From: a virus
DNA length: 38,460 nt
Reading direction: 5' to 3' (one strand)
Virus record (IMG/VR): IMGVR_UViG_3300048838_001849
Span: 1-38,460 of that record
Positions 2,031-38,400 of the stretch are shown here, one piece after another; positions within the stretch are counted from its first letter, which is position 1, and the number at the start of each line of letters is the position of its first letter. Below the pieces are notes generated by a model. That model saw nothing but the letters and a program-made list of their open reading frames with translations, searched no databases and was not told where the DNA came from. The position numbers and the translations under genes were made by a program.

Positions 2031-3373
2031 GCGCGCCTCCTGCTGCGCGCAGCGCCTGCTGCGATTTGGTCAAAGGTCTTTCCGCTGCCCTCAAGGATGG
2101 CGTCGGCCTTCGTCGCGGCCTGCCAGCGCCTGACGGCGACATCTACGTAGAGTGGGTCGATCTCGATACCGAAGGCCCGCCGGCCGATCCGATCCGCCGC
2201 CAAGACCGTCGTGCCGGATCCCAGAAAGGGGTCCAAAACGACATCACCGCGGCGGGTACAGTCCCGCATCGCGTCCGCTACCAAAGGTATGGGTTTGACG
2301 GTTGGATGCGCCGTCAAGTCGGCCATACGCCCGGCGCGGAAGGTATTGGCGCCGGGATAGGTCCAAACGTTCGTACGGTTTCGTCCAAAACGCCCGAGCT
2401 GGACGTAATTCAAGTGAAGGCCGGCACCGACTTTGAAGACAAAGATTTCCTCGTGCTGTGACCGGTAGAACGAACCCTGGCCCCCGCTCGCCTTCGCCTA
2501 GACGACGACGTTTAGAAGCTCGCTGTAAATCTCCTTTCCGGCCGCCAGCAGTTCACCGTAATGGCGCCAATCCATGCAAATGTAATGCAGCGCGCCATCA
2601 ACAGAGTTCTCTGCAGCCGGACCGAGCGACCTGATCAGGAACTCAGAAAACTCGGCCGACGACATTTCGCCGGACGCCATCGCAAAGTTGCGATGTTTGG
2701 TACGCCCGCGTCCGACCGTCTTCGAGATGTTCACGTTGAAGGGTGGGTCGCTGAACACCATTGCGGCTCGGTCAGGCCCCATCAGCCTGTCGTAATCCGC
2801 TCGCCTGGAATCTGCGCATAGCACTCGGTGTCGCTGGCCGAGCACCCACATGTCACCAGGCTGACTAACCGACTTCGCTTCGACAGCCGGAATGTCCTCC
2901 TCCGAGTTCGCCTCTGCGTCGCTCAAATCCACCATCAAGGCGTCGAACTCGGCTTGATTGAAACCCGTCAAGTCCAGCTCAAGGTCCTCTTTGGCAAGCA
3001 AAGTGGACAAATCCTGCAATTCGACTACGAGAGCGGAACGGTCATATCCCGCCATCTCCGCGATCTTGTTATCAGCCAGGACATACGCGCGCTTTTTGGC
3101 CTCGGACAGCCCGTTCAGAACCCTGACTGGGATCTTCGCCAGACCCAGCTTCTTAGCGGCCGCTGTCCGCGCGTGCCCAGCGAGAATGACGTCGTTCTCG
3201 TCAACAAGCACCGGATTCGTGAATCCGAATTCCTTAATGCTCGCGGTGATACGACATATCTGCTCGCCAGAGTGGGTGCGAACATTGTTTGGATGGGGTA
3301 TTAGAGAAGAGGTCTTTCGATATTCGTCATTGCGATCGACCATGAAGGGCTCCTGAAAAAACAGAAGCCCCAA
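2027..3373 (-). pseudogene. ParB-N domain/DNA methyltransferase with in-frame amber codon
   Basis: Phage-type fusion of a ParB/sulfiredoxin-like domain (residues about 20-110, with ILAGHAR and RAYVLADNKI) to an N4/N6 DNA methyltransferase. The catalytic motif SDPPF is at 208-212 and the AdoMet-binding motif DPFLGSGTT lies near the C-terminus. The frame is open from 3373 to 2501, meets TAG at 2500-2498, then continues in the same frame to TGA at 2027 with good family sequence (GGQGSFYRSQHEEIFVFK, NRTNVW, HPTVKPI). Homologues, as I recall them, have Trp at this point (VWAK), so TGG to TAG is the simplest explanation. The 291-residue product would keep the catalytic motif but lose the AdoMet site. 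A better start may be the internal ATG at 3343 (MVDRNDEY). Read-through by a suppressor tRNA is possible but unsupported. Confidence 0.88.
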
Positions 3374-7900: not shown

Positions 7901-8245
7901 CCGATGATGCCGAGCGACATCATAGTTGTTGCCCCCTACAACGCGCAGGTCAACGCGCTAAGGGATGCGCTCCCAGCAAACATCCGCGTGGGCACCGTAG
8001 ATAAGTTCCAAGGCCAGGAAGCCCCCGTGTGCTTAGTCTCTATGACGGCCTCCTCTGTGGAGGAAACTGTGCGCGGCATGGACTTCCTGTTCTCGCTTAA
8101 CCGCATCAACGTGGCAGTATCACGGGCAAAGGCGCTGGCGCTGGTCTTCGGCGCGCCTCGCCTACGCGAGGCGAAGTGCGAGACCGTGGAGCAAATGCGG
8201 CTTGTGAACACTCTATGTGCATTGCCGGAAGTTGCGAACTCTTAA
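4946..8245 (+). CDS. TM0106-family RecB-like nuclease fused to SF1 helicase
   Basis: A 1099-residue multidomain nucleic-acid enzyme. Residues 1-200 are RecB/Cas4-like, with candidate PD-(D/E)xK residues in GAFSYEVTDTKLKR (about 124-137). Cysteines 208, 211, 214 and 220 (CSDCALC...C) look like an iron-sulfur or zinc cluster. Residues about 310-480 are an RNase H-like exonuclease domain with FYDIEGDP (Asp315, Glu317) and NYNRIDC (Asp473). Residues 700-1090 form an SF1 (Dna2/Upf1-like) helicase: Walker A GPPGTGK (720-726), Walker B VDEAGQ (835-840), GDPRQLPQ (860-867), VDKFQGQE and NVAVSRAK. It is 0.7 kb upstream of mcrB-mcrC on the same strand, which suggests a shared defence role. Family assignment is firm; the partnership with McrBC is inference. 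Confidence 0.9.
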   Translation: MRILGGRILLSASDLMRFTGCAHATALDLAYMRGTGPTPREHTEDAALLQKQGDLHEAAHLVRLKAEGRCIFEINRANLAQDAAATREALTNGPDVIFQGAFFSGNWGGWSDFLERVDKPSALGAFSYEVTDTKLKRRPHPKHVLQLVLYSDLLTEVQGIAPEFAHVELGDSTRATLRLADYAAYARMARSRLEAFVADPQETRPMPCSDCALCRWEDDCTEAWKTEDSLFNVANITHGQVKKLEAAGVRTMESLAALDHPIRNMSEPTRNRLVIQARLQHARKTGAPSFELRQPEPGKGFDLLPEPQRGDLFYDIEGDPHYEGGLEYLHGVWFDDRFCAFWAHDHNAEAQALGELLEFFRARLAEFPSARIYHYAAYEITALRRLTTKYGIGEAFLDRLLRERRFVDLFMVVRGALIGSEANYSIKSMEAFYGRTRDGEVKTAGGSVVAYERWRETGDQKILDEIENYNRIDCISTQELRDWLVGIRPPASWPALGQDAGTKEAEEDTETQALRAAIEASGLPDARQEMLFNLGLFHKREAKPAQWVVFDSVGKEEDDLIDDLNALAGLEATGPAEPIKRSMARTYRFPPQETKLSGGRNATVPVVDGAPATVSIEALDRTACEIRVKVGSAKVHLLTDRLTLHPDWPMNTDVIAASLRDVITDQCGARRFTAVDDLLSRAAPRLTNGSRLDLLNGTDPVTSTIAAVGAMDRTVLPIQGPPGTGKTYVTARAILSLVRQGHRVGVASNSHEAIRNVLMGCLSALEESDLDIVPGKTDLAHKVSGSEDGYPDGFTGIARATSNDDPALTHAHVVGGTAFFFARPEFEQSFDWLFVDEAGQVGLANMVAMGRAARNIVLIGDPRQLPQVVQGAHPEPANLSCLDWMLGEHATVPPDRGIFLPISRRMHPEVCRFISDQVYEGRLSSHPDTARQRVSGVPFPEAGAFWIAVAHEGNAQIALEEVAAIQAAVRDLLSSTWTDKEGAPRPMMPSDIIVVAPYNAQVNALRDALPANIRVGTVDKFQGQEAPVCLVSMTASSVEETVRGMDFLFSLNRINVAVSRAKALALVFGAPRLREAKCETVEQMRLVNTLCALPEVANS

Positions 8246-8475
8246 ATGTGGCAAGACTTCGAAGCGCGAATTGCGGAAAATGAAGAGAGTGATCCTTTCC
8301 ACTCCGCACGGCTTTTTTCAACGTAATCCGTGGCGCAGGACTGCTGAAGCGCAACGCGCAGCAGTTGTCGGCTTCTACAACATTTACCAGGGCGTTGATC
8401 AATGATATTTTGAACGATGCAAGATGTCGCGAGCTTGTAGCGATTCAGCAGTCGAGTATCCGTCGTCTAAGCAGC
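8246..8475. other. Gap between helicase gene and antisense small gene
   Basis: About 230 bases between the helicase stop and the end of the minus-strand small gene. A 62-codon plus frame crosses it but overlaps the helicase 3' end and has no family features, so I do not call it. No terminator hairpin with a T-tract was recognised. Confidence 0.4.
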
Positions 8476-8901
8476 TCAGTCTCTCCGGGCGGCTTCAGAT
8501 TCAGCCGTTGCGAGTATTACCTCCGTGACGTAGCCTTCAGGCCCGTCAACGGGCTGCTCGAGGACTTTCGCCGCTACAGCATGCCCAATGCAACCCTTGT
8601 CCATTCTCCGCTGATCACCATTAAACGAAATGAAAACAGGAACTCTGGCGGAGCCCAAATGCCACGCGATGTCTTCAAGAAGTCGCTCGAATTGACCCTG
8701 CCGCGATCTATCTCTTGTAGGCGTTTCTTTGGCGAGCGAGCGCGCATCGAACGTGCTGGTCTCACGCACAAAGACATCGTTAGAGCCAGGCACACTTTCG
8801 TAGTCGAGAGGCACCGGTGTCCAAGATGGCATCACCAAATCCAATTGGCGTAATATCTGTGTTCGAACTTTATCGGCTTGCGCCGAACGAGCCAACAGCA
8901 T
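8476..8901 (-). CDS. Hypothetical protein, opposite strand inside defence island
   Basis: A 141-residue frame that I do not recognise. It has a balanced amino-acid composition (VPVFISFNGDQRR, EGYVTEVILATAESEAARRD) and plausible codon use, and reads better than the overlapping plus-strand frame 8365-8853, which is rich in Arg and Ser like a shadow. It has no membrane segment or signal peptide. Its start lies only 22 bases from the mcrB start on the other strand, so the two would need overlapping promoters; this weakens either this gene call or the mcrB start. It could also be the remnant of a longer gene. Function unknown. Confidence 0.45.
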   Translation of the reverse strand: MLLARSAQADKVRTQILRQLDLVMPSWTPVPLDYESVPGSNDVFVRETSTFDARSLAKETPTRDRSRQGQFERLLEDIAWHLGSARVPVFISFNGDQRRMDKGCIGHAVAAKVLEQPVDGPEGYVTEVILATAESEAARRD

Positions 8902-8923
8902 TTTCGCTCATCAACTGATCCTC

Positions 8924-11836
8924 ATGACCCAAGCCGACGAAATCCGTGACTTTGTCGTAGATAATTTCACCGAGCCAGCGCGATCGCGGGGAGATACACG
9001 CCTGACTATTCGGGCAGGAGATGTCCATACTGCAATGAAGCTTGAAAACGCGATGCCGGCAGTTTGTAGTGCGATTGGCAGCGCAAAGTTCTGGGCACGC
9101 GCAAATGTACGGCAGATTGGCCGTGAAGGACCGGCAAATGGCAGCAGCGTGACTTGGACGTTCGATCTCGCAAACGGCGCCGTATTCAACGTCGAAGCTG
9201 CCGAGATGGAGTTACGGAACCGATATGGACCTCCGTCTGTCTTCACTGAAAAGATGGTAGGGTTTCATCTGAACGATGGGCGTGCTGTCGCGCTACAGCG
9301 CGATATCAAGCAGGTCCAAGTATGGGTCGAGGCCAAAGCTCAGTCGAATGCGCCTCCCGTCGAAAAGAAGCTCGAGTATGCGGCAAACCGCGGCCGTCAC
9401 TCAAATCTTCCCGACCGGCTGAAACACAACCCTCCGACCGAACTTCGAGACCGGGGCTTCCCGAGGGAGGTGCTCAGCTTAAGGGTGGCAAATGCTTCAC
9501 AACTGAACAACCTCCTAGACTGGTACGAAGGACATTCGCCGACCTTAGACTTCAGAGCACTGGAGATACTGAAAGACAATTTCATATCTAAATTTCCCGA
9601 CTTCACGGACTTTCGCGCCAGCGAGGGGATGTACTGGAATCGAGTACGTCGCGAGAAACAGGCATGGATCGAGAAGGCTCGAACGCTATCCGATAGCAAT
9701 GACGGACGACAACAGAGCGCCTTGGGTGCGAAGCTATTGGACTTCATCGGCTCGAGCGAATGCGAGGCTTTGCATTGGAGAATGAAGGCAGGTCTGAAGG
9801 ATATTCGAGCGAAACATTCGGCACTCCTCGAGAATGCGGCCGGAGAACTCGTCTCTAGCCGATTGGAGCCTGCTGCAGCGACCGAAGAATTCGTCAGATC
9901 CGTCTGGCCTGCCTACTCAAAGGGACACGAAGAGAACTACCCTTACGGAGATATGCGCACTATCCCGACAGCACTTCTTGCGCTCGTTAGACCGAGCAAT
10001 GCGGTAGTGGTTCACTATCAACCAATGCACACAGCAGGAACCCGGCTTCTTCACAGATCGCTATTCAAGAACGCGCCGTTCTCCGCAACGGAGTACCAAG
10101 ATGTGCTTTCCATGTGCGGTGAGATCGCCGTTGCGATGCGCGACTCTTGGAACTGGGATCCGCAGGATCTGTGGGATATCCAAAGTTTTATCTGGGAGAC
10201 CTGTCGAACCTCCGGGACCACTCCGAAAGATGAAAGCCACGCAGATATGCCAATAGCACTCCAAACTGCCTCTTTCGGGGGTCCACAAAATCTGATCCTT
10301 TACGGACCTCCCGGCACCGGCAAGACCTACGCAACGGTTTGGGAAGCGGTCCGTCTTTGCATCGGAGAGGACGCTGCCGCTCCGATCCAGAACGACCGTA
10401 ATGCCTTAACGGCCGAATATCGGCGCCTCACGAGCGAGGGACAGATTGAGTTCGTTACGTTCCACCAGTCGTTTTCATACGAAGACTTTATAGAAAGTCT
10501 TCGGCCGGTTTCCGAAACCGTTGGCGCGGACAATGAGCAGGAAGTCGGGACGTCAGGTGGATTCAGTCTCAAAGTTTACCCCGGAATATTCAAGGTGATC
10601 AGCGAGAGAGCCCGCCTGGACACCGGCAATGCTCCGATGAAACGGCTCGATCGGTCCAGACCAATTTACAAGATTGCACTGGGTCAACGCGGAAGCGACG
10701 AAGACCGCATACAAAAGGTTCTCGACAACTCAATCATCCATCTCGGCTGGGGTGGTGATATTGATTGGTCCGATGGACGGTTCGACAGTTTCGAGGAAAT
10801 CAAGAAGCATTGGAACGAGAAAAAAGATCCGAACGCTTCTGGCAAGGACCCCAATATTGAAATGACCTACGCTTTCAGGTCGGGACTGCAGACCGGGGAC
10901 TATGTGATTATTTCCGACGGGAGAGACAGCTACCGCGCTTTCGGAAAGGTAACAGGCGAGTATGAGTTTGATCACACCGATAGTTTTCTTCCTCACAGAC
11001 GCAAGGTCGAATGGATCTGGCGCAATGATAAAGGGGCAGAAAGGACGACTTTCTATCCCAAGAATTTCAGGCGACAAGCAGCATATCGACTGGATCCAAA
11101 CCTGATCGACTGGGACGCACTGGAAACGGTCGTGATAGGGTCGGACGCAGAACGCCCTGTCGCAGGCGCACGCCCCCATGTCCTGATCATCGACGAGATC
11201 AACCGAGCGAATATCTCCAAGGTTTTCGGCGAGCTCATCACGTTGCTGGAGGCAGATAAGCGTCTTGGCTGCGAGAACGAAGTTAGGGTACGACTTCCCT
11301 ATTCTGGAACGATCTTTGGCGTTCCGCCGAACCTACACATCATTGGCACAATGAACACCGCCGATCGTTCGATCGCGCTGCTCGATACTGCATTGCGTCG
11401 TCGGTTCGCCTTTAGCGAATTGATGCCGGACACGTCCGCGCTTCAAACGGCTATGCGTGCCAACGGCCTCAACGCCGAGAACATGGACGGAATCAATCTT
11501 GTTAAACTGCTGACCACGATTAATGAGCGCATCGAATATCTCTTCGACCGCGAGCATCAGATCGGCCACGCTTATTTTACCGGCTGCCGCGACCGCGCAG
11601 ATGTGATGAGTGTTATGCGTAACAAGGTCATCCCGTTGTTGGCCGAGTATTTTTACGAGGACTGGTCGAAGGTCGCCATCGTACTTGGTGACGGGAATGG
11701 GGCGACCACGGGCAATTTCATCGAAGCAAAGAAGCTGTTACCTCCCAGCAATTTCAATGGTGATGACGAACTGGGCGGTGAGAAGGTTCGTTGGATCGTC
11801 AAAGCAGAATTCGACTTCTCGGAGTTCGCGGCCTGA
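8924..11836 (+). CDS. McrB-type GTPase/AAA+ restriction subunit with inserted EVE-like domain
   Basis: NTP-driven translocase subunit of a type IV (modification-dependent) restriction system; McrB proteins use GTP. Residues 1-130 form a compact N-terminal domain (GDVHTAMKLENAMPAVCSA) of unknown role, probably target recognition, followed by a mostly helical linker. The AAA+ core has Walker A GPPGTGK (461-467), Walker B LIIDEINR (754-761) and the McrB signature MNTADRS (810-816) followed by LRRRF. Walker A and B are about 290 residues apart. Residues about 570-745 form an extra domain (GLQTGDYVIISDG, AFGKVTGEYEFD, HRRKVEWIW) resembling EVE/PUA-like modified-base readers. Its TGA overlaps the mcrC ATG (TGATG), so they are coupled. 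Total length (970) is about twice that of E. coli McrB. The McrB call is firm; the EVE call is by eye. Confidence 0.9.
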   Translation: MTQADEIRDFVVDNFTEPARSRGDTRLTIRAGDVHTAMKLENAMPAVCSAIGSAKFWARANVRQIGREGPANGSSVTWTFDLANGAVFNVEAAEMELRNRYGPPSVFTEKMVGFHLNDGRAVALQRDIKQVQVWVEAKAQSNAPPVEKKLEYAANRGRHSNLPDRLKHNPPTELRDRGFPREVLSLRVANASQLNNLLDWYEGHSPTLDFRALEILKDNFISKFPDFTDFRASEGMYWNRVRREKQAWIEKARTLSDSNDGRQQSALGAKLLDFIGSSECEALHWRMKAGLKDIRAKHSALLENAAGELVSSRLEPAAATEEFVRSVWPAYSKGHEENYPYGDMRTIPTALLALVRPSNAVVVHYQPMHTAGTRLLHRSLFKNAPFSATEYQDVLSMCGEIAVAMRDSWNWDPQDLWDIQSFIWETCRTSGTTPKDESHADMPIALQTASFGGPQNLILYGPPGTGKTYATVWEAVRLCIGEDAAAPIQNDRNALTAEYRRLTSEGQIEFVTFHQSFSYEDFIESLRPVSETVGADNEQEVGTSGGFSLKVYPGIFKVISERARLDTGNAPMKRLDRSRPIYKIALGQRGSDEDRIQKVLDNSIIHLGWGGDIDWSDGRFDSFEEIKKHWNEKKDPNASGKDPNIEMTYAFRSGLQTGDYVIISDGRDSYRAFGKVTGEYEFDHTDSFLPHRRKVEWIWRNDKGAERTTFYPKNFRRQAAYRLDPNLIDWDALETVVIGSDAERPVAGARPHVLIIDEINRANISKVFGELITLLEADKRLGCENEVRVRLPYSGTIFGVPPNLHIIGTMNTADRSIALLDTALRRRFAFSELMPDTSALQTAMRANGLNAENMDGINLVKLLTTINERIEYLFDREHQIGHAYFTGCRDRADVMSVMRNKVIPLLAEYFYEDWSKVAIVLGDGNGATTGNFIEAKKLLPPSNFNGDDELGGEKVRWIVKAEFDFSEFAA

Positions 11837-13122
11837 TGAGGTCCTATACCGTCCGCGAATGGGACAAGCTCACTTATGGCGACGGCGACGGGCAGATCCC
11901 GGAGCATTTCGCTGACCGGCTGGCGAGCTTAGCGCTGCGCTCACCCTTTGCAGGCAGGGGCGGCAGCGGTGTGCTTGAACACGGCCGCCATGCGCTCCGG
12001 GCGCGGGGCGTGGTCGGGATCCTAGCCGCCAAGGACTGCAGCTTGGAGATTCTGCCTAAGATCGATGTCGCGCCCGGTGAGAGTGTCAGCCGTGTGAATG
12101 CGGCGATACGTAAGCGCCTAATCCACATGCTGGCCGTGGCGCTCGATCTGAAGGTCGATCTCGGGACGATAACGGAGCTTGCATGGCAGCGTGAGACGTT
12201 GCTTGAAATCCTGGTTCGCATTTTTTGCGAGAAGCTCACCGAAGCGGTCCGAAAGGGCATGCCGCGCCGCTATGTTGAGGAAGCAGACGACCTATCTTCC
12301 TTGCGCGGTAGGCTCAATGTCGTGCGCCAGTTCACCCGCCACGCGGTCAACCCTTCCCGTCTCGCCTGCCGGTTCGATGTCCTTTCCGAGGACACCCCGT
12401 TGAACCGGATTATGAAGGCGGCGGTCGCCCATCTATATCGAACATCTCGAAGTTCGGCGAACCAACAACGCTTGCGCGAACTGGCTTTCGTCTATGCGGA
12501 TATAACAGAGGCTCAGCCGGCGGCTCTCCGATGGGATGAAGTCGTGATCGACCGGACCAACCGCCGATGGCAGGAGCTTCTGGGCATGGCCCGGCTTTTT
12601 TTGCTCTATCGCTATCAGACGACGACTGGAGGCCTGAGCCAGGGGACCGCGCTACTTTTTGAAATGAACTCACTATTCGAAGAATACGTCGGTCGCCTCA
12701 TCTCTCGGGCTTTGACAGGGACTGATCTTACGGTGACGTTACAAGGCGGCCGCCTTTTCTGTCTGACCGCAGAAACTACCGAGCGTGGACTTTTTCAGAC
12801 AAAGCCTGACATCCTAATTCGTCGAGCAGGTGTCACGACGCATGTGATCGATACAAAATGGAAGCGAATCACTTCCCGGATTGACGATCCTAAGCAAGGC
12901 GTCTCGCAAGGCGATGTCTACCAGATGATGGCCTATGCACAGCTCTACCGTGCTCCGCGTCTTACACTCCTGTATCCGCATCATCCGGGGTTGGGCGGCG
13001 AGGAAGACGTTCACTCTCGACACCGAATAACCGGGCACGACACCATCCTCGAAACTGCAAGCATTGATGTGGCGAACGGTAACAAGGTTCTTGACCGGCT
13101 CCGGAGTCTGCTCCTGGCCTAA
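11836..13122 (+). CDS. McrC-type restriction endonuclease subunit
   Basis: Nuclease partner of McrB, 428 residues, matching the usual McrC length. The N-terminal half is the McrB-docking region. The C-terminal half has a PD-(D/E)xK nuclease: KPDILI (Asp325), VIDTKWK (Asp340, Lys342), then QGDVYQMMAYAQLY, the Q-x-Y helix of this fold. I chose the ATG at 11836, which overlaps the mcrB stop, rather than the longer frame from 11791 that would start inside mcrB. McrB and McrC would assemble into a ring complex that cleaves DNA carrying particular base modifications; which modification is not predictable here. The gene ends the plus-strand run, and 279 bases separate it from the convergent RepB-like gene. 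Confidence 0.93.
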   Translation: MRSYTVREWDKLTYGDGDGQIPEHFADRLASLALRSPFAGRGGSGVLEHGRHALRARGVVGILAAKDCSLEILPKIDVAPGESVSRVNAAIRKRLIHMLAVALDLKVDLGTITELAWQRETLLEILVRIFCEKLTEAVRKGMPRRYVEEADDLSSLRGRLNVVRQFTRHAVNPSRLACRFDVLSEDTPLNRIMKAAVAHLYRTSRSSANQQRLRELAFVYADITEAQPAALRWDEVVIDRTNRRWQELLGMARLFLLYRYQTTTGGLSQGTALLFEMNSLFEEYVGRLISRALTGTDLTVTLQGGRLFCLTAETTERGLFQTKPDILIRRAGVTTHVIDTKWKRITSRIDDPKQGVSQGDVYQMMAYAQLYRAPRLTLLYPHHPGLGGEEDVHSRHRITGHDTILETASIDVANGNKVLDRLRSLLLA

Positions 13123-22254: not shown

Positions 22255-22584
22255 GGCTGTCGTGAATGGCAGCGCGTGGGCCTTAAGCCTCCGACCGCCG
22301 TGTCCGCCGCGACCGAGGAATATTTCGAGGCCGAGGATGCGTTGGGGCGTTGGCTCGACGAAGCGTGTGAGCGCGGGCGCAATCTGACCGAGACGAGCGG
22401 CACACTATTCGCCGCCTGGAAGGTCTGGGCCGAAGCGAACGGCGAGTTCGTCGGCTCGATCAAGCGCTTTTCCGAAAACCTGGCGAGCCGAGGGTTCGAA
22501 CCCTACCGCGATCGTCATGCCCGCGGCTTTCGCGGACTTGGCCTGCGGCAGGGCGGCAGCGGCCGTGCCGAGATGGAGTTCTGA
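22255..22584 (+). pseudogene. C-terminal stub of P4-type phage DNA primase
   Basis: The frame reads GCREWQRVGLKPPTAVSAAT, then EEYFEAEDALGRWLDE and a tail SIKRFSENLASRGFEP. This matches, from memory, the final 100 or so residues of phage/plasmid primase-helicases of the P4/D5 type. The whole catalytic part (Toprim/AEP and SF3 helicase, typically 500-700 residues) is missing: immediately upstream the frame has no family content, and minus-strand genes begin at 22179. A GTG at 22276 could still start a 102-residue product, but it would have no enzymatic core. This marks a deletion edge of the prophage. Confidence 0.75.
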
Positions 22585-23478: not shown

Positions 23479-24531
23479 TCACTTCAGCACGTACCAGGTC
23501 GATCGCCCGCCGCCCTGCTTTGCGAGATAGCCCTTCTCGACCAGTTGCCGAAAGTGCTCCTTGAGCGTGTTGCGGCTGACGCCGGTCAGCTTGGCGATCT
23601 CGCCGATGCTGACGCGGCCGTGTTCGCGGACGTGGTCGAGAATCTGGACTGAGTGTTCCGGCAGGCTTGAGACCACGAGCTTCTCGCGCTCGATCTTTCT
23701 CGCCAGCCGCTCCTTCTGCTGGCGCAGCGCGCGCAGGAAGAACAGAAGCCACGGCTCCCAATTGGGATTGTCGGTGCGGATCGTTCCCTGCGTCTGCCGC
23801 AGCGCCAGGTAGTAGCCTTCCTTGCTCTGCTCGATGACGCTCTCAAGCGAGCTGTAGGGCACGTAGGCATAGCCCGCGCGCAGCAGCATCAGTGTGGTGA
23901 GGATACGGCTCAGCCGTCCATTGCCGTCCTGGAACGGATGGATGGCGAGGAACACGACCGTAAAGATCGCGATGACGAGCAGAGGATGGAGGCGCTTCTC
24001 CACCGTCGCCTCGCCAAACCAGGTGACGAGTTCGGTCATCAGCCGGGGCGTGTCGAATGGCGTCGCGGTCTCGAACACGATGCCGATCTGCTTGCCGTCC
24101 TGGTCGAAGGCCACGACGTTGTTGGGGCCGGTCTTGTAACCGCCGCGGTGGCGCTCGTCCTTCTCGCTGTGCACGAGCAGGTCGCGGTGCAATTGCTTGA
24201 TGTGGTTTTCGGTGATTGTGATTTCGTCCCACGACCGGAACACGAGGTCCATCGCTTCGGCGTAGCCGGCGACCTCCTGCTCGTCGCGGGATGCGAAGGA
24301 CTTGATGTCGAGGTTGGAGAGCAGCCGCTCGACTTCGCGGTCGGAGAGCTTGCTGCCCTCGATCCGGGTGGAGGAGCCGATGCTCTCGATGGTGGCGACA
24401 CGCCGCAGCGCCGACAGCCGTTCAGGCGCGACGGTTCCGAGCGCCCGCCAGGCGCCCTTGAACTCGTCGATCTCGGCGATCAGCGCCAGGATCTCCGGGG
24501 TGATCCGGATGGTGTCGGTTCGGATGCTCAC
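23479..24531 (-). CDS. Fic family protein with C-terminal winged helix
   Basis: Fic enzymes transfer AMP or another nucleotide moiety to target proteins. The catalytic loop HPFQDGNGR (about residues 198-206) is complete. An N-terminal inhibitory helix motif SSTRIEG (about 54-60, matching (S/T)xxxE(G/N)) is present, so the protein should be self-inhibited and needs no separate antitoxin. Residues about 285-350 form a winged HTH (VREHGRVSIGEIAKLTGVSRNTLKEHFRQLVEKGYL), as in the large Fic-wHTH group. The open frame extends to 24594, but those codons consist of operator-like repeats, so I prefer GTG at 24531 (SIRTDTIRITPE). It is inserted against the direction of the phage genes. Autoregulation through the repeats is plausible. 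Confidence 0.9.
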   Translation of the reverse strand: MSIRTDTIRITPEILALIAEIDEFKGAWRALGTVAPERLSALRRVATIESIGSSTRIEGSKLSDREVERLLSNLDIKSFASRDEQEVAGYAEAMDLVFRSWDEITITENHIKQLHRDLLVHSEKDERHRGGYKTGPNNVVAFDQDGKQIGIVFETATPFDTPRLMTELVTWFGEATVEKRLHPLLVIAIFTVVFLAIHPFQDGNGRLSRILTTLMLLRAGYAYVPYSSLESVIEQSKEGYYLALRQTQGTIRTDNPNWEPWLLFFLRALRQQKERLARKIEREKLVVSSLPEHSVQILDHVREHGRVSIGEIAKLTGVSRNTLKEHFRQLVEKGYLAKQGGGRSTWYVLK

Positions 24532-24600
24532 ACCCGAATAGACACCCAAATCCACCCAAATAGCAAGGCCACCCGAATGCCCACCCAATTGCACCCGATT
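24531..24600. promoter_or_regulatory. Duplicated three-box repeat array at the Fic promoter
   Basis: Six copies of CACCC(G/A)A(A/T)T start at 24531, 24543, 24553, 24570, 24582 and 24592. The spacings 12, 10, 17, 12, 10 show that a three-box unit has been duplicated with a 39-base offset. Box variants are CACCCGAAT, CACCCAAAT (twice), CACCCGAAT, CACCCAATT and CACCCGATT. The array abuts the preferred Fic start, so it is well placed for a repressor, possibly the Fic winged helix itself (inference). Confidence 0.65.
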
Positions 24601-24909
24601 GGAACAGACTTAAGGAAAGGGAAGGCCGTCAACCTTTCATTAGCCCAACCGGCAAGGAAAGGATCGAGCCCGTCCGGCCGCTCGCGGGTCCTTCCTGGCG
24701 GAGATCCTAGGCGGGGGGCAATGGCCCGAAATTTCGCCACCGGCAGGGCAAAAATCTGAGTTACCGGTTACCACGCGACGTTGCCGCCCGTATGCCCTAA
24801 AGGGCCGCAACGGTTGGTGTTTTCGGCCTGCGCCCTGGTAACCGCCGCCTGGTAACAGGCGTGCCCCAGTTACCACGCCTGCCGCGGTACGGCGCTCCAC
24901 GCGAAACAG
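24601..24909. promoter_or_regulatory. Intergenic region with GGTAAC/GTTACC cluster
   Basis: Some 310 bases upstream of the methyltransferase-terminase chimera. GTTACC occurs at 24760, 24767 and 24869, and its complement GGTAAC at 24837 and 24851. GTTACCACGC is repeated at 24767-24776 and 24869-24878. GCCTGGTAACAGGC is a stem with five-base arms. These may be operators or terminase/packaging-site repeats next to the terminase gene; neither is proven. No coding frame is convincing here. Confidence 0.45.
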
Positions 24910-26877
24910 ATGACGCACCGACTGCCCGACACGGTCGAGCATTGGCCGCTCGACCGCCTGATCCCCTATGCACGCAACGCCCGCACCCACGCGGACGACC
25001 AGGTCGCGCAGATCGCGGCCTCGATCGTGGAGTTCGGCTGGACCAACCCGATCCTGGTCGACGCCGAAGGCGTGGTGGTCGCCGGTCATGGCCGGCTGCT
25101 GGCGGCACGCCGTCTCGGCATAGATACCGTGCCGGTGGTGGTGCTCGGCCACCTGACCCCGGCGCAGCGTCGCGCCTACGTGATTGCCGACAACAAGCTC
25201 GCGCTCAACGCCGGCTGGAATGAGGAATTGCTCGCGGCCGAGCTGCATGCGCTCAACGGCGAGGGCTTCGATCTTGCGCTGACCGGATTCTCCGACGCCG
25301 AGCTTGAAGCGCTGATGGCGCCGCTCGGCGAAGAGGGGGAAGCCAGCGACGGCGACGACGATGCCGCCGACGAGACACCTGCGCTGCCGCGTCAGCCGGT
25401 CACGCAAGCCGGCGATCTCTGGCTGCTCGGCCGCCACCGTCTCCTTTGCGGCAGCAGTGCCGATGCGGCGGTGGTCTCGCGCGTCATGGAGGCGCGCACG
25501 CGCACGTTCTCGTGGCGGGCGAAGACGTTCCTGACCTCGACGCCAACGATCCATGGCTTCTCGCGGATCGAACGCGAGTACGAGGCATCCGACCAGCGTC
25601 GCTTCTTCGTGCCGTGTCCGCATTGCGGGGTGCTGCAGTGGCTGCGCTTCGAGCGGCTGCGGTGGGACAAGGGAAAACCCGAGACCGCACACTACGAGTG
25701 CGAGGCCTGCGACGCCGCCATCGAAGAGCATCACAAGACCGCGATGCTTGCGGCCGGCGACTGGCAATCGACCGCGGACGCCGCCGATCCCGGCACGATC
25801 GGGTTCCATCTCTCGGCGCTCTATTCGCCGGTCGGATGGTTTTCGTGGGCCGACATCGCCCGGATGTGGGAGGCAGCGCAGGCAACCGACGAAGCCAAGC
25901 GCAGCTTCAAAAACGGCGTCCTCGGCGAGACCTGGATCGAAACCGGCGAGGCGCCCGACTGGCAGCGTCTGTACGATCGTCGCGAACCCTGGCAGATCGG
26001 CACGGTGCCGCCCCGCGGTCTGTTCCTGACCGCGGGCGCCGACGTTCAGAAGGATCGGATCGAGGTCGACGTCTGGGCCTGGGGCCGCGGACTCGAAAGC
26101 TGGCTGGTCGAGCACCTCGTGATCGAGGGCGGACCCGACCGAGCGGAAAGCTGGGATGAGCTGAGCGGCTTGCTGGATCGCACCTGGCCGCACGCGCACG
26201 GCGCACGGTTTGGGCTCGCGAAGCTCGCAATCGACACCGGCTATGAATCGCCGGCGGTTTATGCCTGGGGCCGCAAGGTGGGGCACGCGCAGGTCGCGCC
26301 GGTCAAGGGCGTGGAGGGCTTCAATCGGGCAGCACCGGTCGTCGGTCCGACCTTCGTGGATGTGACTGAGGCAGGCCGCAAACTGCGGCGCGGGGCGAGG
26401 CTTTGGACGATCGCGGTCGCGACCTTCAAGAGCGAAACTTACCGTTTCTTGCGGCTCGACCGCCCGACCGACGAAGAGATCGCTGAGGGTGCTTCCTTTC
26501 CGGCGGGGTTCGTTCATCTGCCGCGCGGGGCCGAAGCGGAATGGGTCAAGCAGCTCGCTGCCGAGCAACTCGTGACGGTGCGAACCAAGCGCGGCTTCAC
26601 ACGCCTGGAATGGCAGAAGATTCGCGAACGCAATGAGGCGCTCGACTGCCGCGTCTACGCCCGCTCGGCCGCATGGCTCGCGGGAGCGGACCGGTGGTCC
26701 GAAGCGAAGTGGCGTGACCTCGAGGACCAGGTCGGGCCTGCGCCTGATGAAAGTGCAGTGATCTCCGCGCAGAGCGATGCGCAGGGCCTGACCGCGGGCG
26801 TACTCGCGCGTGCACCGGCCGCAGCCGGCAAGCGCCGCTCCGATTGGCTCGCCGTGGACAAGGGATGGCTGAGGTGA
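24910..26877 (+). CDS. Chimeric gene: ParB-methyltransferase N-terminus fused to GpA-type terminase C-terminus
   Basis: A 655-residue frame built from two phage genes. Residues 1-193 are a ParB-N domain (RLIPYARNARTHADDQ, VVAGHGRL, RAYVIADNKLAL) plus the lead-in of a DNA methyltransferase (DLWLLGRHRLLCGSSADAA). From about residue 194 (EARTRTFS, then KTFLTSTPTIHG) it is the GpA-family large terminase: SRIEREYEASDQRRFFVPC, a CPHC/CEAC zinc ribbon (236-239, 264-267) and the C-terminal nuclease part. Both the methylase catalytic core and the terminase Walker-A ATPase half are missing, with the small terminase gene expected between them. The join lies near 25486-25510. The product could not package or methylate DNA. 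Its TGA overlaps the gpW ATG. Confidence 0.88.
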   Translation: MTHRLPDTVEHWPLDRLIPYARNARTHADDQVAQIAASIVEFGWTNPILVDAEGVVVAGHGRLLAARRLGIDTVPVVVLGHLTPAQRRAYVIADNKLALNAGWNEELLAAELHALNGEGFDLALTGFSDAELEALMAPLGEEGEASDGDDDAADETPALPRQPVTQAGDLWLLGRHRLLCGSSADAAVVSRVMEARTRTFSWRAKTFLTSTPTIHGFSRIEREYEASDQRRFFVPCPHCGVLQWLRFERLRWDKGKPETAHYECEACDAAIEEHHKTAMLAAGDWQSTADAADPGTIGFHLSALYSPVGWFSWADIARMWEAAQATDEAKRSFKNGVLGETWIETGEAPDWQRLYDRREPWQIGTVPPRGLFLTAGADVQKDRIEVDVWAWGRGLESWLVEHLVIEGGPDRAESWDELSGLLDRTWPHAHGARFGLAKLAIDTGYESPAVYAWGRKVGHAQVAPVKGVEGFNRAAPVVGPTFVDVTEAGRKLRRGARLWTIAVATFKSETYRFLRLDRPTDEEIAEGASFPAGFVHLPRGAEAEWVKQLAAEQLVTVRTKRGFTRLEWQKIRERNEALDCRVYARSAAWLAGADRWSEAKWRDLEDQVGPAPDESAVISAQSDAQGLTAGVLARAPAAAGKRRSDWLAVDKGWLR

Positions 26878-28598: not shown

Positions 28599-30650
28599 AT
28601 GCACGGGACTATCGATCTGCCGCCGCTTCAGCGGGCGGCAGCCATTCTGCCTGCATCGCTCGACGAGAAGGATCGCTCGATCGAGGTCGTGTGGTCGACC
28701 GGCGCGCGCGTGCGGCGCCAGCCGTTCTTCGGCGAGCCGTTCGACGAGGAGCTGAGCATGGACCCTGACGAGGTCCATCTCGATCGCCTCAACGCAGGTG
28801 CGCCGCTCCTCAAGGTGCACGATCGGTTCGCGCTTGAGGCAGTGATCGGCTCGGTGGTGCCGGGCACGGCGCGCATCGAGAACGGTCGCGGGCTGGCCCG
28901 CGTGCGCTTTAGCGAGCGAGAGGATGTCACCCCGGTCTGGAACGATATCTGCAGCGGGCACATCCGCGCGGTCTCGGTCGGCTATCAGGTCCAGCGTTAC
29001 GAAATCACCCGTCCGAACAACGGCCCCGAATTGTGGCGTGCCGTCGATTGGACTCCCTTCGAAATCTCCGCGGTCCCGGTCGGGGCCGACCCGGCGGCCG
29101 GCTTCCGCTCGGTTGATTACCTGATGCCCTGCGTCCTCGACCGGGATGACGCGACCACTCCCAGGAGAACCATCATGGAAAATGCTCAGACCAAGCCGGC
29201 GGCGCCCGACCCGACCGCGGCCGGTGATCTCGCCTTGCCCGGGATCCTCGATCACAAGGAGGAAGGATTGGAACAGCGATCACAAGCCGAGGCACGGCCG
29301 TCTAAGCCCGCTCAGGTGGCGACCGAGCCGGCGGTGCCGATGTCTGCCGCTCCGACGGCGGACGCGCTCATCGCCCGCGCACAAGAAATCGAGCGCGACC
29401 GGGTCTCGACCATCTACGATCTCGCGACCCGGCTTGGGCTGGAGCGGTCTTTCTCCGATGACCTGGTGAAGCGCAATGTCGGGATCGAGGAGGCCCGCCG
29501 CCTGATCCTCAACAAGGTCGCCGAGGCTGCCGATCATGCGCGAGTATTCCCGCATGTCTCCGTTCCGCTCGGCGGACGTGACGAGCGCGTGACGCGCCGC
29601 GACGCGGTGGCGAATGCGCTCCTGCACCGCTACAGCCCGACGCTGTTCCCACTCAGCGAACCTGCCCGCGAATACCGCGGCATGACGCTGCTCGAGCTGG
29701 CGCGCGAGTTTCTGGCGAATGCCGGCGTCAATGTCCGGGGCTTCTCGCGCGACGAGATCGCAACGCGTGCGTTGCACTCGACCTCTGACTTCCCCGAAAT
29801 CCTCTCGGCGGTCACCAACAAGGCGCTGCGCCAAGCTTACGATGCCTATCCGCGCACCTTTGTGGCCTTCTGCCGCCAGGTGCTGGCCACCGACTTCAAG
29901 GCCATGAACCGGGTGCAGATCGGCGAGGCGCCGCAGCTCCTGAAGGTCAACGAGAGCGGCGAGTTCAAGCGCGGCACGATCGCGGAATCGAAGGAAAGCT
30001 ATCGCATCGAAACCTACGGTCGCGTGGTCGGCATCACGCGGCAGGTCTTGATCAACGACGACCTCGATGCCTTCACCCGCATTCCGGCGATGTACGGCAC
30101 TGCCATTGCCACGCTCGAAAGCGACGTGGTGTGGGCGATCGTCACGGCGAACGCAGCGATGGCCGACGGCGTCGCGCTCTTCCACGCGACGCACAAGAAC
30201 CTCGCCGGCACTGGCGCGGCGCTCAGCGTCACCACGGTGGGCGACGGCCGCGCCGCGATGGCCAAGCAGACCGGTCTCGACAAGAAGACGGTGCTCAACA
30301 TCCGCCCGTCCTTCCTGATTGTGCCGGCGGCGCTGGAGCTCGCGGCCGAGCAGCTGATCGCGCAGAACCTGGTGCCAGCAAAGACCGGCGATGTGGTGCC
30401 GCAATCGATCCGCACGCTCACCCCGATCTCCGAGCCGCGGCTCGACAGCGCGAGCGCCACGGCCTGGTATCTCGCCGCAAACCCGGCCCAGATCGACACC
30501 ATCGAGTACGCGTATCTGGAGGGCCAGCAGGGCGCCTACATCGAAACCCGCAACGGGTTCGACGTCGACGGCGTCGAGATCAAGTGCCGGCTCGACTTCG
30601 GCGCCAAGGCCATTGACTGGCGCGGCCTCTACAAGAACGCCGGCGCATAA
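28599..30650 (+). CDS. Prohead protease/major capsid protein fusion
   Basis: A 683-residue polyprotein. Residues 1-175 are an HK97-type prohead serine protease with candidate catalytic His74 (KVHDRF) and Ser126 (RAVSVGYQ), ending in the typical WTPFEISAVPVGADP. A linker of about 150 residues rich in Ala, Pro and charged residues acts as scaffold (delta-domain-like). From about residue 300 it is a major capsid protein of the gpT/HK97 fold (AVTNKALRQAYDAY, FKRGTIAESKESYRIETYGR, GITRQVLINDDLDAF). The protease would cleave itself free during maturation. Fusions of this kind are known in alphaproteobacterial phages. The start ATG at 28599 has AAGGA six bases upstream, better than the in-frame ATG further upstream. 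Confidence 0.92.
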   Translation: MHGTIDLPPLQRAAAILPASLDEKDRSIEVVWSTGARVRRQPFFGEPFDEELSMDPDEVHLDRLNAGAPLLKVHDRFALEAVIGSVVPGTARIENGRGLARVRFSEREDVTPVWNDICSGHIRAVSVGYQVQRYEITRPNNGPELWRAVDWTPFEISAVPVGADPAAGFRSVDYLMPCVLDRDDATTPRRTIMENAQTKPAAPDPTAAGDLALPGILDHKEEGLEQRSQAEARPSKPAQVATEPAVPMSAAPTADALIARAQEIERDRVSTIYDLATRLGLERSFSDDLVKRNVGIEEARRLILNKVAEAADHARVFPHVSVPLGGRDERVTRRDAVANALLHRYSPTLFPLSEPAREYRGMTLLELAREFLANAGVNVRGFSRDEIATRALHSTSDFPEILSAVTNKALRQAYDAYPRTFVAFCRQVLATDFKAMNRVQIGEAPQLLKVNESGEFKRGTIAESKESYRIETYGRVVGITRQVLINDDLDAFTRIPAMYGTAIATLESDVVWAIVTANAAMADGVALFHATHKNLAGTGAALSVTTVGDGRAAMAKQTGLDKKTVLNIRPSFLIVPAALELAAEQLIAQNLVPAKTGDVVPQSIRTLTPISEPRLDSASATAWYLAANPAQIDTIEYAYLEGQQGAYIETRNGFDVDGVEIKCRLDFGAKAIDWRGLYKNAGA

Positions 30651-30725: not shown

Positions 30726-31061
30726 ATGAAGAACTACGTTCAACCCGGCAATACCATCACGCTCACGGCGCCCTACGACGTCGCTTCCGGCGACGGGCTT
30801 CTCGTCGGTGCCATCTTCGGGGTCGCCACCGGCGCCGCTGCGAACGGCGAGGCGATCGAGGCCGCGCTCGTCGGCGTGTTCGACCTCAAGAAGGTGGGCT
30901 CGCAGGCCTGGGCGGTCGGCGACAAGATCTATTGGGACAACACCGCCAAAGAGACGACCAAGACCGTCGCCAGCAATACGCTGATTGGCGCCGCCATTGA
31001 GGCTGTCGGCAACGGAGCCGGCGAGACCGTCGGGCGTGTTCGACTCAATGCGAGCTTCTAA
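30726..31061 (+). CDS. DUF2190 family capsid decoration-like protein
   Basis: A 111-residue, glycine- and alanine-rich, beta-type protein. It starts MKNYVQPGNTITLTAPYDVASGDG and contains VGVFDLKKVGSQAWAVGDKIYWD, the recognisable core of DUF2190, a family found directly after major capsid genes and thought to decorate or stabilise the capsid. AGAAGGA seven bases before the ATG supports the start. It appears intact. It is the last gene before an inserted antisense toxin-antitoxin cassette, whose toxin stop overlaps its 3' end by four bases. Confidence 0.88.
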   Translation: MKNYVQPGNTITLTAPYDVASGDGLLVGAIFGVATGAAANGEAIEAALVGVFDLKKVGSQAWAVGDKIYWDNTAKETTKTVASNTLIGAAIEAVGNGAGETVGRVRLNASF

Positions 31062-31828
31062 GCGCGAACCCAGCGCAGCTTGGCAATGCGCGGATCGGCC
31101 GCAAAGGCCTTGCGATCAAACGTGATGCCGGACTTCGGCGCCTCGCAGATCGCCTGGGCGCCGGCGTCGCTGAGACGAATATGCCACGTCTGCTGCTCGA
31201 TCGGCTGGGTCTTAGCAAATGCTCGGCAAGTCAGAACCGCGAGGTTGATGCCATGATCGGGGTCACGAACCGATGCGTAGCGAATGATCTCGATCTTGGC
31301 CGCGCGGGCGGCATCGGCAAACGCCTGGCAGTGGCCGTAGTCCGTTACATGCATCCACCGTGCCCGGTCGGCGCTGTATTTGCCTTTGGTCAGATCGATC
31401 GCTTTTTTGGTGGTGTATTCGGCTGAGAATGCCGTGTATTCGGCGGGATTTGCAGGCCACGGCGTATCGGGCGACTCCGCAAAGAACAGCAGACGACAGA
31501 ATGTCATCTCGGCGACCGCCGTCTGCGGCACCTCCGATGCGTAGAACACGCCCTCTGTCATGCCCGCGCGCCGGAAACGCGATCCGGTGGGGTAGACCGC
31601 GCCATAGCGGAACGGCGTCGACAGAAGGTAGTGCAGGTCGCGGCACTCGGGCGGCAGTGGCGGCTTGGTGGTCTCGATGAGGTCTTCGAGCAGTTCCTGC
31701 TCGTCAACCGAATCGACGAGCTTGAGCGTCGAGACATGGTGTTGCGCCTCGACCAGCCGCCAGCAAGTGCCGCTGCTGGCACGGGCGTCAGACGACAGCG
31801 CGGCGGGCGTCCAGATACTGGATGACAT
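31058..31828 (-). CDS. RES-domain toxin (NAD+ phosphorylase/ADP-ribosyltransferase-like)
   Basis: RES toxins deplete cellular NAD+ or ADP-ribosylate targets until bound by their Xre/MbcA antitoxin. The 256 residues show the RES pattern: CWRLVEAQHHVST (Arg24), FRYGAVYPTGSRFRRAG, then GVFYASEVPQTAVAEMTF (Tyr96, Glu107) and a later Ser in the SVRDPDHG region. Length and order fit the family. Its start (31828) lies inside the 3' end of the antitoxin gene, overlapping by 41 bases, so expression is coupled with the antitoxin first. It is antisense to the surrounding phage genes, fitting a moron or stabilisation cassette. Confidence 0.9.
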   Translation of the reverse strand: MSSSIWTPAALSSDARASSGTCWRLVEAQHHVSTLKLVDSVDEQELLEDLIETTKPPLPPECRDLHYLLSTPFRYGAVYPTGSRFRRAGMTEGVFYASEVPQTAVAEMTFCRLLFFAESPDTPWPANPAEYTAFSAEYTTKKAIDLTKGKYSADRARWMHVTDYGHCQAFADAARAAKIEIIRYASVRDPDHGINLAVLTCRAFAKTQPIEQQTWHIRLSDAGAQAICEAPKSGITFDRKAFAADPRIAKLRWVRA

Positions 31829-32171
31829 TCATCAGCCCGGGCACGGTTTGAATAAGCGTCAGCGGTTCACCGTCGAGCGCGGTGTTGCGGTTCTTCAGCC
31901 ACGAGCCGGCAACCGCGTCGTCGCCGCCAACGATCGCGTCGAGCGACCGGTAGAGGCGCACGAACAGGACCGCGAGCTCGAACGGCTTCTGGCCCGGCTG
32001 CAGAGTGTAGTCGCCGCTGCGCATGCGCGAGACGGTTGCCTCCGATACGCCGATCACGGTCGCGAGCGCCTTGTTGGTCAGGCCCAGCTGGCCGGCGGCT
32101 CGTAGCGTTGCCTTGGTGAGGACGGTCGCCTTGTCGGGTGCGGAGACCGGGCGGGGTTTGGTGGGTGCCAC
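31788..32171 (-). CDS. MbcA/ParS/Xre-type antitoxin
   Basis: A 127-residue partner of the RES toxin. The N-terminal Xre-like HTH (LTNKALATVIGVSEATVSRMRSG) should bind the operon promoter. The C-terminal half (QKPFELAVLFVRLYRSLDAIVGGD, WLKNRNTALDGEPLTLIQT, GLMNVIQYLDA) is the MbcA/ParS toxin-binding domain that covers the RES active site. I place the start at GTG 32171, which has GGAGG six bases upstream on the minus strand; the longer frame to 32252 has no such site. Likely autoregulated through repeats just upstream. Confidence 0.88.
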   Translation of the reverse strand: MAPTKPRPVSAPDKATVLTKATLRAAGQLGLTNKALATVIGVSEATVSRMRSGDYTLQPGQKPFELAVLFVRLYRSLDAIVGGDDAVAGSWLKNRNTALDGEPLTLIQTVPGLMNVIQYLDARRAVV

Positions 32172-32189
32172 GGATTGCCTCCATTTCTG

Positions 32190-32222
32190 TAGCAAGAATA
32201 TAGCAACAAACTTCCTAAGGAA
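32190..32222 (-). promoter_or_regulatory. Candidate promoter/operator of the toxin-antitoxin cassette
   Basis: Between the antitoxin GTG and the divergent head-tail gene there are two TTGCTA repeats (minus strand, complementary to 32190-32195 and 32201-32206; 11 bases apart) and the short palindrome TTCCTAAGGAA (32212-32222). The AT-rich patch contrasts with the GC-rich phage genes. An Xre-bound operator is inferred. Confidence 0.4.
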
Positions 32223-32273
32223 AGACAAATCGGGCCACCCCGGTTCCCGCATTTCGCACCTTTATAAGCATCG

Positions 32274-32591
32274 ATGAACGCAATCGAATTGGCCATCGCG
32301 GCCCTGTTTGCCGATCCCAACCTCGGGCGGGACGCCCAGTGGCGCGCTGGGGGAGCGGGCGATGGCAGCGCCGTCCGCGTCATTCGCAAGCGCCCGGACC
32401 AGGTTGTCGGCTTCGGCGACAGCCGGGCGGTCATGCCGACCGTATTGATCGATGTGCGCCGAGCGGAGGTGCCGAATCCGGCGTCCGGCGACACGCTCGA
32501 AATCGAAGGCGAGACCTTCGCCGTCATCGCCACACCCACCATCGATGCAGAGCGGCTGATCTGGACCTGCGAGGCGTCCCCGCTGGGCTAA
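32274..32591 (+). CDS. Head-tail joining/attachment protein
   Basis: A 105-residue small beta-rich protein (QVVGFGDSRAVMPTVLIDVRRAEV; GDTLEIEGETFAVIATPTIDAERLIWTCE) of the head-tail joining type (gpFII or neck protein-like) found before tail genes. The start ATG at 32274 has only a weak upstream site, and the toxin-antitoxin cassette now occupies its upstream region, so its original promoter or read-through may have been disturbed. The stop lies four bases before the next gene. Family call rests on size, position and beta-sheet pattern. Confidence 0.75.
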   Translation: MNAIELAIAALFADPNLGRDAQWRAGGAGDGSAVRVIRKRPDQVVGFGDSRAVMPTVLIDVRRAEVPNPASGDTLEIEGETFAVIATPTIDAERLIWTCEASPLG

Positions 32592-35440: not shown

Positions 35441-38400
35441 ATGTCCACCACAAATGTCTCGATCCGCCTCGGCGTCGAGGGCAAGGCGGAGGTCAAGCGC
35501 GCCTTCGACGAGGTCGGCAAGGCGGGACAGGATGCGTTCCGCGGCGTTGCCACCTCCATGGACGCCGCGGGCGCCGCGGCAGACCGCGAGACGCAACGCC
35601 TGCAACGGCTGGCCCAGGCCGCCAAGCAGGCCGCTGCGGCCGATCAGGCCCAGCGCGGCTTCAATACCGTTCTCGGCGTTGGCACTGGCGTTCCCAAGTC
35701 CGCGCGGGATTCCGCCGCGGTGTTCGAAGAGGCGGCTAGAGCCTCCGAAGACCTGGCGGCCCGCACGGCTGCACTGCGCGCGCAGATCGATCCGCTTGGC
35801 GCGGCGCAGGCAAAGCTCAACGCCGAGATCGCCGAAGCCAATGGGCTGTTCAAGGCGGGCGCGATTACCGCAACCGAGCAAGCCGCCGCGCACGCCCTGG
35901 CGCAGGCCCGCTATGACTCGACCGCGAGAGCCCTCGGAGGGATCAGCTCGACCGGCAAGCTCGCATCGCACCAGCTCGTCAACCTGAGCTATCAGCTCAA
36001 TGACGTGGTCGTCTCGCTTGCGAGCGGCCAGCGGCCCCTGATGGTGCTGATGCAGCAGGGGTCGCAGATCGCTCAGATCTTCGGGCCCGGCACCGGCATC
36101 ACCGGCATCCTGCGCGGTGTCTGGCAGGGCCTCACCAGCCTGATCACGCCGACGACCGCGGTTGTGGTCGGCATTGCGGCGATCGGAGCTGCGGTCGGCT
36201 ATTCCTATTACCGCTACATCGAGTCGCAGAAGGAGCTCGAGGTCGCGCTTGCCGGCACCGGCCGGGCCGCGGGCGCAACCGTCGGCCAGATTGAACGGAT
36301 CGCGGAGCGGTCGGCCTCCGCCGGCAGCGTTTCGGTTGCGGCCGCGCGGGAAATGGAGGCCGCGTTCCTTCGGACCGGCAAGATCGCGGTTACGAACTTC
36401 GAAGGCCTGATCAAGGTCGTCAAGAACTACGCAGCGACCACCGGCACCGATGTCGCAACCGCGACCAAGGAGCTTGCCGGCGCCTTTGCCGATCCGATCC
36501 GGGGAGCGGACTCGCTTAACGAGAAGCTCAACTTCCTCGATGATCGGACGCGGCAATACGTCCGCACGCTTGCCGATCACAACAACCGCACCGATGCCCA
36601 GCGTGTCCTGCTCGATGCGCTGAAAGGCAGCCTGGTCAATGCATCCGAGGCCACTACGGCGCTCGGCCGCGCCTGGGATTTCGTTGGGCGGATGGCGTCC
36701 AACGCCTATGACGCGATGGGCCGCGCGATCTCGCGGGCGCTCGACGGAGCGCCGATCGATGAGCGTCTGAAGGAGCTCCAGCAGGAACGCGCGCGCCTGC
36801 AGGCGCTGATCGAGAACCCGCCTACGCGCTTTGCGGCTCAGGCCCGCAACTTCAATACGCGGATGCTGGCCGAGGTCGAGGCCGAGATCGCCAAGATCGA
36901 GGCCAAGCTCGCCAACATCGAGGTCCGGGCGAAGGACGCGAAGGCCAACGAGCTCTCGGTCCGCGCCGGCACGGTGGCACGCGACCTCACGCCCGGCTTC
37001 GAAGAGCTGCAGACGCTCCGCGCCCGGCAGGCGCAACTCCGTTCCGCGCTTGACGACCCGCTCGTCAGGCAGAAGGTCGCCGACCTCAAGCAGGTCGAGA
37101 CCGCGTATGACGCGGTCACCCGCGCGATCCGCAGCTGGCTCGACCCGGCCGAAAAGGCCCGCCGCCTCGACGAGCTCGAAATCCAGGCGCTTCAGGCCAA
37201 GACCCCGGCGCAGAAGGCTGCCATCGCCGAGGAAAGGCGGCGGTTGAGCTTGCCGGACAGGCGATCCCGGTCGCCATTGCCGAAGCCGACATCACGCGGG
37301 CCGGCACCAAGGCGCGCACCGAGGCGACGCAGGCGCATATCGACCAATCGCGTGTCGTCGAGGTCAACACCAGGGCAACGCTCGGCCTGGCGGATGCTTG
37401 GCTCAAGGGGGCAGCGGCGGCCCAGCAGGCGGAAGTCCGCCGCAAGGCGCTGACCGAGGCCGTGCAGAATGGCGTCGATGTCGAGACCCGAGCCCGCGAG
37501 CTCCTGCGCGAGCAGATCGCGGAGCAAGCCGCGCAGTCGGCGAAATCGGCCACCGATCTGACGGCCGAAGCCGCCGCGCAGCGCAAGCTCAACGACGCCG
37601 TTGCCGCCGGCACGATCTCGACCGAACAGGCCCAGCGGCTGATGCAGGTCGAGCAGGCGCTCCGGCCGCTCGTCATCGCGCAGGCCCTTGCCGAGGGAGA
37701 CGCGAAGGGCACGCTTGCCCGCGTCATCGATGCGCTGCGCGGAGCCTATGCGCGGCTGCACGGCGAGCGGGCGCGCGCGGCCGCGCTGCAGACGATCGAG
37801 GGCCAGAAGAACCAGATCGAGCTGCTGCAGAAGCAGATCGAATTGACCGGCCAGGGCGAGTCGCAGCGGGCGATCATCATTGCGCAGCTGCAGGCCGAGC
37901 AGCAGCTACGGCAGAAGGGCATCGATCTCGCCAGCGCCGAGGGCCAGGCGATCCTCGCCAACGCTGCCTACATTGAGCGGCTCAACCAGGAACTCGCCCG
38001 CTCCAACGGCGCCATGCAGGCGCTGCAGGGCATCACCGACACGACGTTTAACCACTTTGCGACCCTGATTGCGCAGGGCAAGACCGACTGGAAGTCCTGG
38101 GCGGACGCAGGGCGCGCGGCGCTTGCCGACATCGAAAAGGAAATCCTCAAGCTCGCGGTGATGAACCCGTTCAAGAACTTCTTGTTCGGCACCAACCTGC
38201 CGACACTGAGCAACGTCGGTGGACTGTTTAGCAATGTGTTCGGCGGGTTCTTTGGCGGCACCGGGCAGGGCTTGGTCCGGCTGCCTCAGCAGCGCGCCTC
38301 TTCGGTTCGCCGATCTATCATGCCGGGGCGATTGCCGGAGACACAGCGCCCACCCGTCTCGTTCCCCGCGACCTGTTCCGGGCAGCGCCGCGTCTCCATG

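Follow-up and report, generated by a model that had tools for sequence, protein, structure and literature searches.

An in-frame ParB-methyltransferase–terminase chimera that is probably a deletion scar in a defective prophage

The window analysed here is an entire virus record (IMGVR_UViG_3300048838_001849, 38,460 bases), and it contains an open reading frame in which the N-terminus of a ParB-type DNA methyltransferase (ParB-MTase) runs directly into the C-terminus of a GpA-type terminase large subunit (TerL). The first-pass annotation took this either for an accident or for a new DNA-targeting nuclease, which raises the question of how such a chimera arose and whether its product could do anything. 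We favour the first answer, and put the probability that the frame is the scar of a single deletion in a defective, decaying prophage at roughly 0.84. The lesion looks real, and has the appearance of ordinary viral decay, not of a new enzyme.

The frame encodes 655 residues, and the ORF together with Pfam and PHROGs matches bears out both the in-frame fusion and the length first proposed for it. Residues 1 to about 194 correspond to a ParB-type N6/N4 methyltransferase and the rest to TerL from its residue ~214 onward: phrog_498 (DNA methyltransferase) aligns over residues 5–195 (E 9.6e-72) and phrog_15 (terminase large subunit) over residues 193–653. At the N-terminus, Pfam places a ParB_N domain at residues 22–78 with an E value of 2.6e-4, under the curated cut-off, and a search of all 655 residues returned no PF01555 (N6_N4_Mtase) match. 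The GpA_ATPase profile is matched at residues 192–285, only over the last part of its 247 positions, and is followed by GpA_nuclease (PF20454; E 1.6e-90), a domain conserved with 19 relatives. A sequence search of the PDB gave Spo0J/ParB, for the N-terminal part, as the sole relative, and a structure prediction made from a shallow alignment had a mean pLDDT of 41, too low to be informative.

Table 1. Coordinates of the fusion, its parts and the further lesions in the window.
Feature	Position	Strand	Remarks
Fusion ORF	24910..26877	+	Open frame, 655 aa
ParB-like domain and linker of ParB-MTase 1, residues 1 to ~194	24910..25492	+	97% identical to L021 (G001) 936-1518
Joint, GAGG microhomology between both parent sequences	25489..25492	+	Comparison with relatives
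GpA_ATPase remnant, profile positions 153-247	25493..25764	+	Pfam; Walker A-like and Walker B segments gone
GpA_nuclease domain, essentially complete, profile 1-291/294, residues 296-598	25795..26703	+	Pfam
Primase C-terminal remnant (807-aa primase in G001)	22276..22584	+	Second large deletion, joint 22255-22257
1.5-kb inversion relative to G001, G005, L182 and L186	20698..22199		Reading frames broken at its ends
Tape-measure gene, 670-aa ORF here vs 1039 aa in G004	35441..37453	+	1-bp deletion near 37246 causing a frameshift
Another ParB-MTase, left end	2498..3373	-	In-frame TAG at 2498-2500; 438 aa in L278

The fusion resembles the ParB-methylases (a ParB domain fused to an N6/N4 MTase, phrog_498) in its N-terminal ParB-like domain and linker, whose DNA is 97% identical to that of an intact gene, and differs from them in having no N6_N4_Mtase catalytic domain with its S/DPPY motif. 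Similarly, it shares with the GpA family of TerL proteins (lambda gpA type, GpA_ATPase plus GpA_nuclease) a complete nuclease, the last ~95 ATPase positions and a lambda-family portal gene directly downstream, whereas the N-terminus, a complete ATPase bearing the Walker A-like and Walker B motifs, and a small terminase of its own are missing. The proposal that the catalytic parts of both partners are lost is thus correct for the methyltransferase, whose catalytic domain is wholly gone, and for the ATPase, which lacks its N-terminal part and Walker motifs, but not for the terminase nuclease, which is essentially complete.

The undamaged arrangement is found in IMGVR_UViG_3300048577_000301 (L021, hereafter G001), the closest relative with sequence on either side of the joint. 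It matches window positions 23975–25492 at 97.0% identity and 25489–26534 at 90.7%, and carries between them 4,492 bp that are absent from the window, more than the ~2–3 kb first estimated. ParB-MTase 1, ParB-MTase 2, the small terminase (TerS) and TerL follow one another unbroken in G001, and the 4,492 bp encode the C-terminus of ParB-MTase 1, the second ParB-MTase (434 aa, with an N6_N4_Mtase domain), TerS (phrog_57) and TerL up to residue ~214. In the intact MTase 1, the N6_N4_Mtase domain starts at residue 199 with an SPPY motif at 204, and the TerL N-terminus holds a Walker A-like segment (KAAQVGATE) and an LFLDEVD segment, both before residue 214. The methyltransferase is cut immediately ahead of its catalytic domain, the terminase midway through its ATPase domain.

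ParB-MTase genes upstream of the terminase have been described as the ParB-Tls locus in Paracoccus phages (PMC6536676). The intact relatives have the gene families and the order of this locus of alphaproteobacterial phages, with the ParB-MTase genes followed by TerS and TerL, and it is the source of both fusion partners; the window differs in that the middle, 4.5 kb, is deleted and the two ends are fused in frame. Among the TerL loci that we fetched, which overlap and are not independent counts, the ATPase N-terminus is kept in 220 of 221 matches, the single exception running off its contig, and none of the 221 carries the fusion. In the 145 cases from these overlapping loci that show both features, the nearest ParB-MTase lies 1.65–6.5 kb from the C-terminal part of TerL, and an upstream ParB-MTase is never nearer than about 1.6 kb. 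One further relative, L181, has two ParB-MTases at 8001–11783 and then, after about 1 kb, tape-measure sequence, and has apparently lost its terminase and head genes too.

Comparison with the parent sequences narrows the join, first placed in a GC-rich repeat at 25486–25510, to the 4 bp GAGG, the only stretch that the two parents have in common there. The repeat itself, GCGCGCACGCGCACG, lies entirely on the terminase side: it is TerL's own coding sequence for A-R-T-R-T, is conserved in TerL and has close counterparts in several TerL relatives. Up to the joint the nearest methyltransferases read CATGGAGG, and beyond it GGAAACGCGCG. Deletion via GCGCGCACGCGCACG, as suggested at first, is not supported and we reject it, since GCGCGCACGCGCACG is missing on the methyltransferase side in these nearest relatives. 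Assuming 65% GC, a random joint would have at least 4 bp in common with a chance of about 2%, so that GAGG as the cause of the deletion is suggestive only.

We infer that the join originated through this microhomology. The ancestor would have had the common ParB-Tls packaging locus, comprising ParB-MTase 1, ParB-MTase 2, the small terminase and a GpA-family large terminase, and illegitimate recombination at the 4-bp match would have deleted 4,492 bp. This event would have removed the MTase catalytic domain, the second MTase and the small terminase, together with some 214 N-terminal residues of TerL that include its ATP-binding motifs, and the two ends would have met in frame by luck, an outcome expected for one such join in three. 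If translated, the product would consist of a ParB-like domain, a broken ATPase and an intact-looking nuclease, and should neither methylate DNA nor power packaging; the element would consequently be unable to package itself by its own GpA terminase. Judged from the sequence, the methyltransferase and the packaging motor of the element are most likely dead, and the fusion product presumably has no role.

To see whether the joint exists as DNA, we scanned all of IMG/VR for sequences that could encode the joint peptide V-M-E-A-R-T-R-T-F, using a degenerate pattern, and found one match outside the window, in the separately assembled record IMGVR_UViG_3300048591_001241. This twin contig spans window positions 16353–37833 (21.4 kb) and is identical to the window at the fusion joint, at both inversion joints, at the primase joint and at the tape-measure frameshift, and thus also carries the inversion, primase and tape-measure lesions. 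It differs by four SNPs, at 19609, 29204, 29215 and 29264. In addition, 39 bp of the capsid gene that are present in the window (about 30325–30363) are missing from it in frame. Because a second, separately assembled contig has the identical joint, a one-off assembly collapse, which the first-pass annotation had named as the outcome that would overturn its reading, is unlikely.

An artefact could also take the form of a chimera within a read or from amplification, or of two related phages in the sample being joined during assembly, and this is the likeliest of the alternatives, although we consider it improbable, at about one chance in ten. The parents share a mere 4 bp at the joint, and identity to G001 shifts across it, synonymous divergence jumping from 0.07 to 0.42; given this step, the recent past of the two sides may differ. 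Moreover, the window and its twin, despite being separate assemblies, may come from related samples, as the relatives cluster in neighbouring IMG taxon ids. Against this, the twin has the same joint and the same other rearrangements while differing in SNPs and the 39-bp indel, and a 4-bp overlap would be too short for a k-mer collapse, so that reads should span the joint.

The deletion-scar reading agrees with the state of the rest of the element. A second deletion, of ~2.0 kb, leaves only the last 109 residues of a D5-type primase whose 807-aa gene is intact in G001 and L182. The inversion breaks a gene that is intact in G005 and, at its other end, a short reading frame assigned by eye, without a family search, as HTH-like. 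Compared with relatives, several genes essential for the lytic cycle are broken (TerL/TerS, primase and tape measure). Taken together, the fusion deletion, the primase deletion, the inversion, the tape-measure frameshift and the nonsense ParB-MTase read as a prophage in decay. The window also encodes a large serine recombinase, which with the lesions suggests integration in a host chromosome, the host flank not being seen within the 38-kb record. Cryptic prophages are reported to lose terminase genes preferentially (PMC7744054), and the element resembles cryptic or 'grounded' prophages (PMC7744054, PMC6379469) in its deletions, inversion, frameshift, nonsense lesions and lost packaging gene, differing in that the scar here leaves a long open frame. 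Against the deletion-scar reading, neither half contains a stop or frameshift and both show low dN/dS, the frames for the portal, the capsid and several tail proteins are unbroken, with head and several tail genes well conserved, a host flank is not seen, and synonymous divergence steps at the joint.

Could the fusion nevertheless be a functional new protein, in which the ParB-like domain directs the terminase nuclease, for instance as a defence or interference factor? Such an activity is conceivable in view of a report that ParB-methylases can nick DNA through their ParB domains (PMC5512222). In this reading the ParB-like domain would bring the metal-dependent GpA nuclease to DNA with no need for ATP-driven packaging. 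The 655 open codons, the complete nuclease domain and the presence of defence-type genes in the same element would fit. The low dN/dS of the two halves relative to relatives (0.10 and 0.05) reflects pre-fusion history and is silent on selection on the fusion itself, since its two known copies do not differ anywhere in the ORF. A functional fusion would be expected to turn up in several unrelated lineages and to show selection spanning the joint, but the search for the same fusion elsewhere, while it did yield the one near-identical twin, brought no repeated occurrence in other strains. No fusion was present in IMG/VR records beyond the twin (joint-pattern scan), in the viral and genome contigs searched, again apart from the twin, or in phage records among the matches listed. 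In 397 genomes of one order, 190 had matches, each, among the matches listed, on one half or the other. A joint-pattern scan of 385 genomes was empty, a weak result as the pattern is specific to this exact joint.

The fusion is thus confined to a single lineage, its terminase side is cut within the ATPase domain, away from a domain border, and the remainder of the element is decaying. With positive support absent, we regard a new DNA-targeting nuclease as very improbable; if it were true, a deletion would have given birth to a prophage-encoded DNA-cutting factor, for example one acting against related phages. It is no likelier that the phage is alive with swapped packaging, the left-end Terminase_6 module (1–2030, minus strand) packaging the genome and the GpA terminase being free to decay: the module's TerL (491 aa) and DUF5681 protein are open and L278 has a close relative of it, but it lies 22 kb away and points out of the window, its own ParB-MTase has a stop codon here, the element's primase and tape-measure genes are broken too, and it is more simply a second prophage.

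As a deletion scar, the locus is a clean example of how a deletion in a decaying prophage can generate a long chimeric open frame that annotators would name 'terminase' or 'ParB nuclease'. It cautions that records of this sort should not be taken for packaging-competent viruses or new multidomain enzymes, and would gain greater importance only if expression and activity of the fusion protein were demonstrated.

Several minor features accompany these results. The inversion is balanced, with about 2 bp in common at its ends and no flanking inverted repeat seen by eye, and the large serine recombinase lies 4 kb from it. In the tape-measure region (35441–38238), the frameshift is present in both contigs. 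The second terminase module as a whole (1–3373; Terminase_6C TerL, DUF5681 protein and the ParB-MTase with the in-frame stop) has close relatives in two IMG/VR contigs only and probably belongs to another prophage. A Fic-family gene (23479–24594, minus strand) sits between a DUF6362 gene and ParB-MTase 1, as in G001 and L006 and unlike in G005. A gene for a RES-domain protein (31058–32303, minus strand) is inserted among the head genes; G004 lacks it, and L117 and L158 have matches to it downstream of the terminase. A probable defence island at 4946–13122 encodes an RNase_H_2-domain helicase (1099 aa), an AAA_5 protein (970 aa) and a McrBC-type protein (443 aa).
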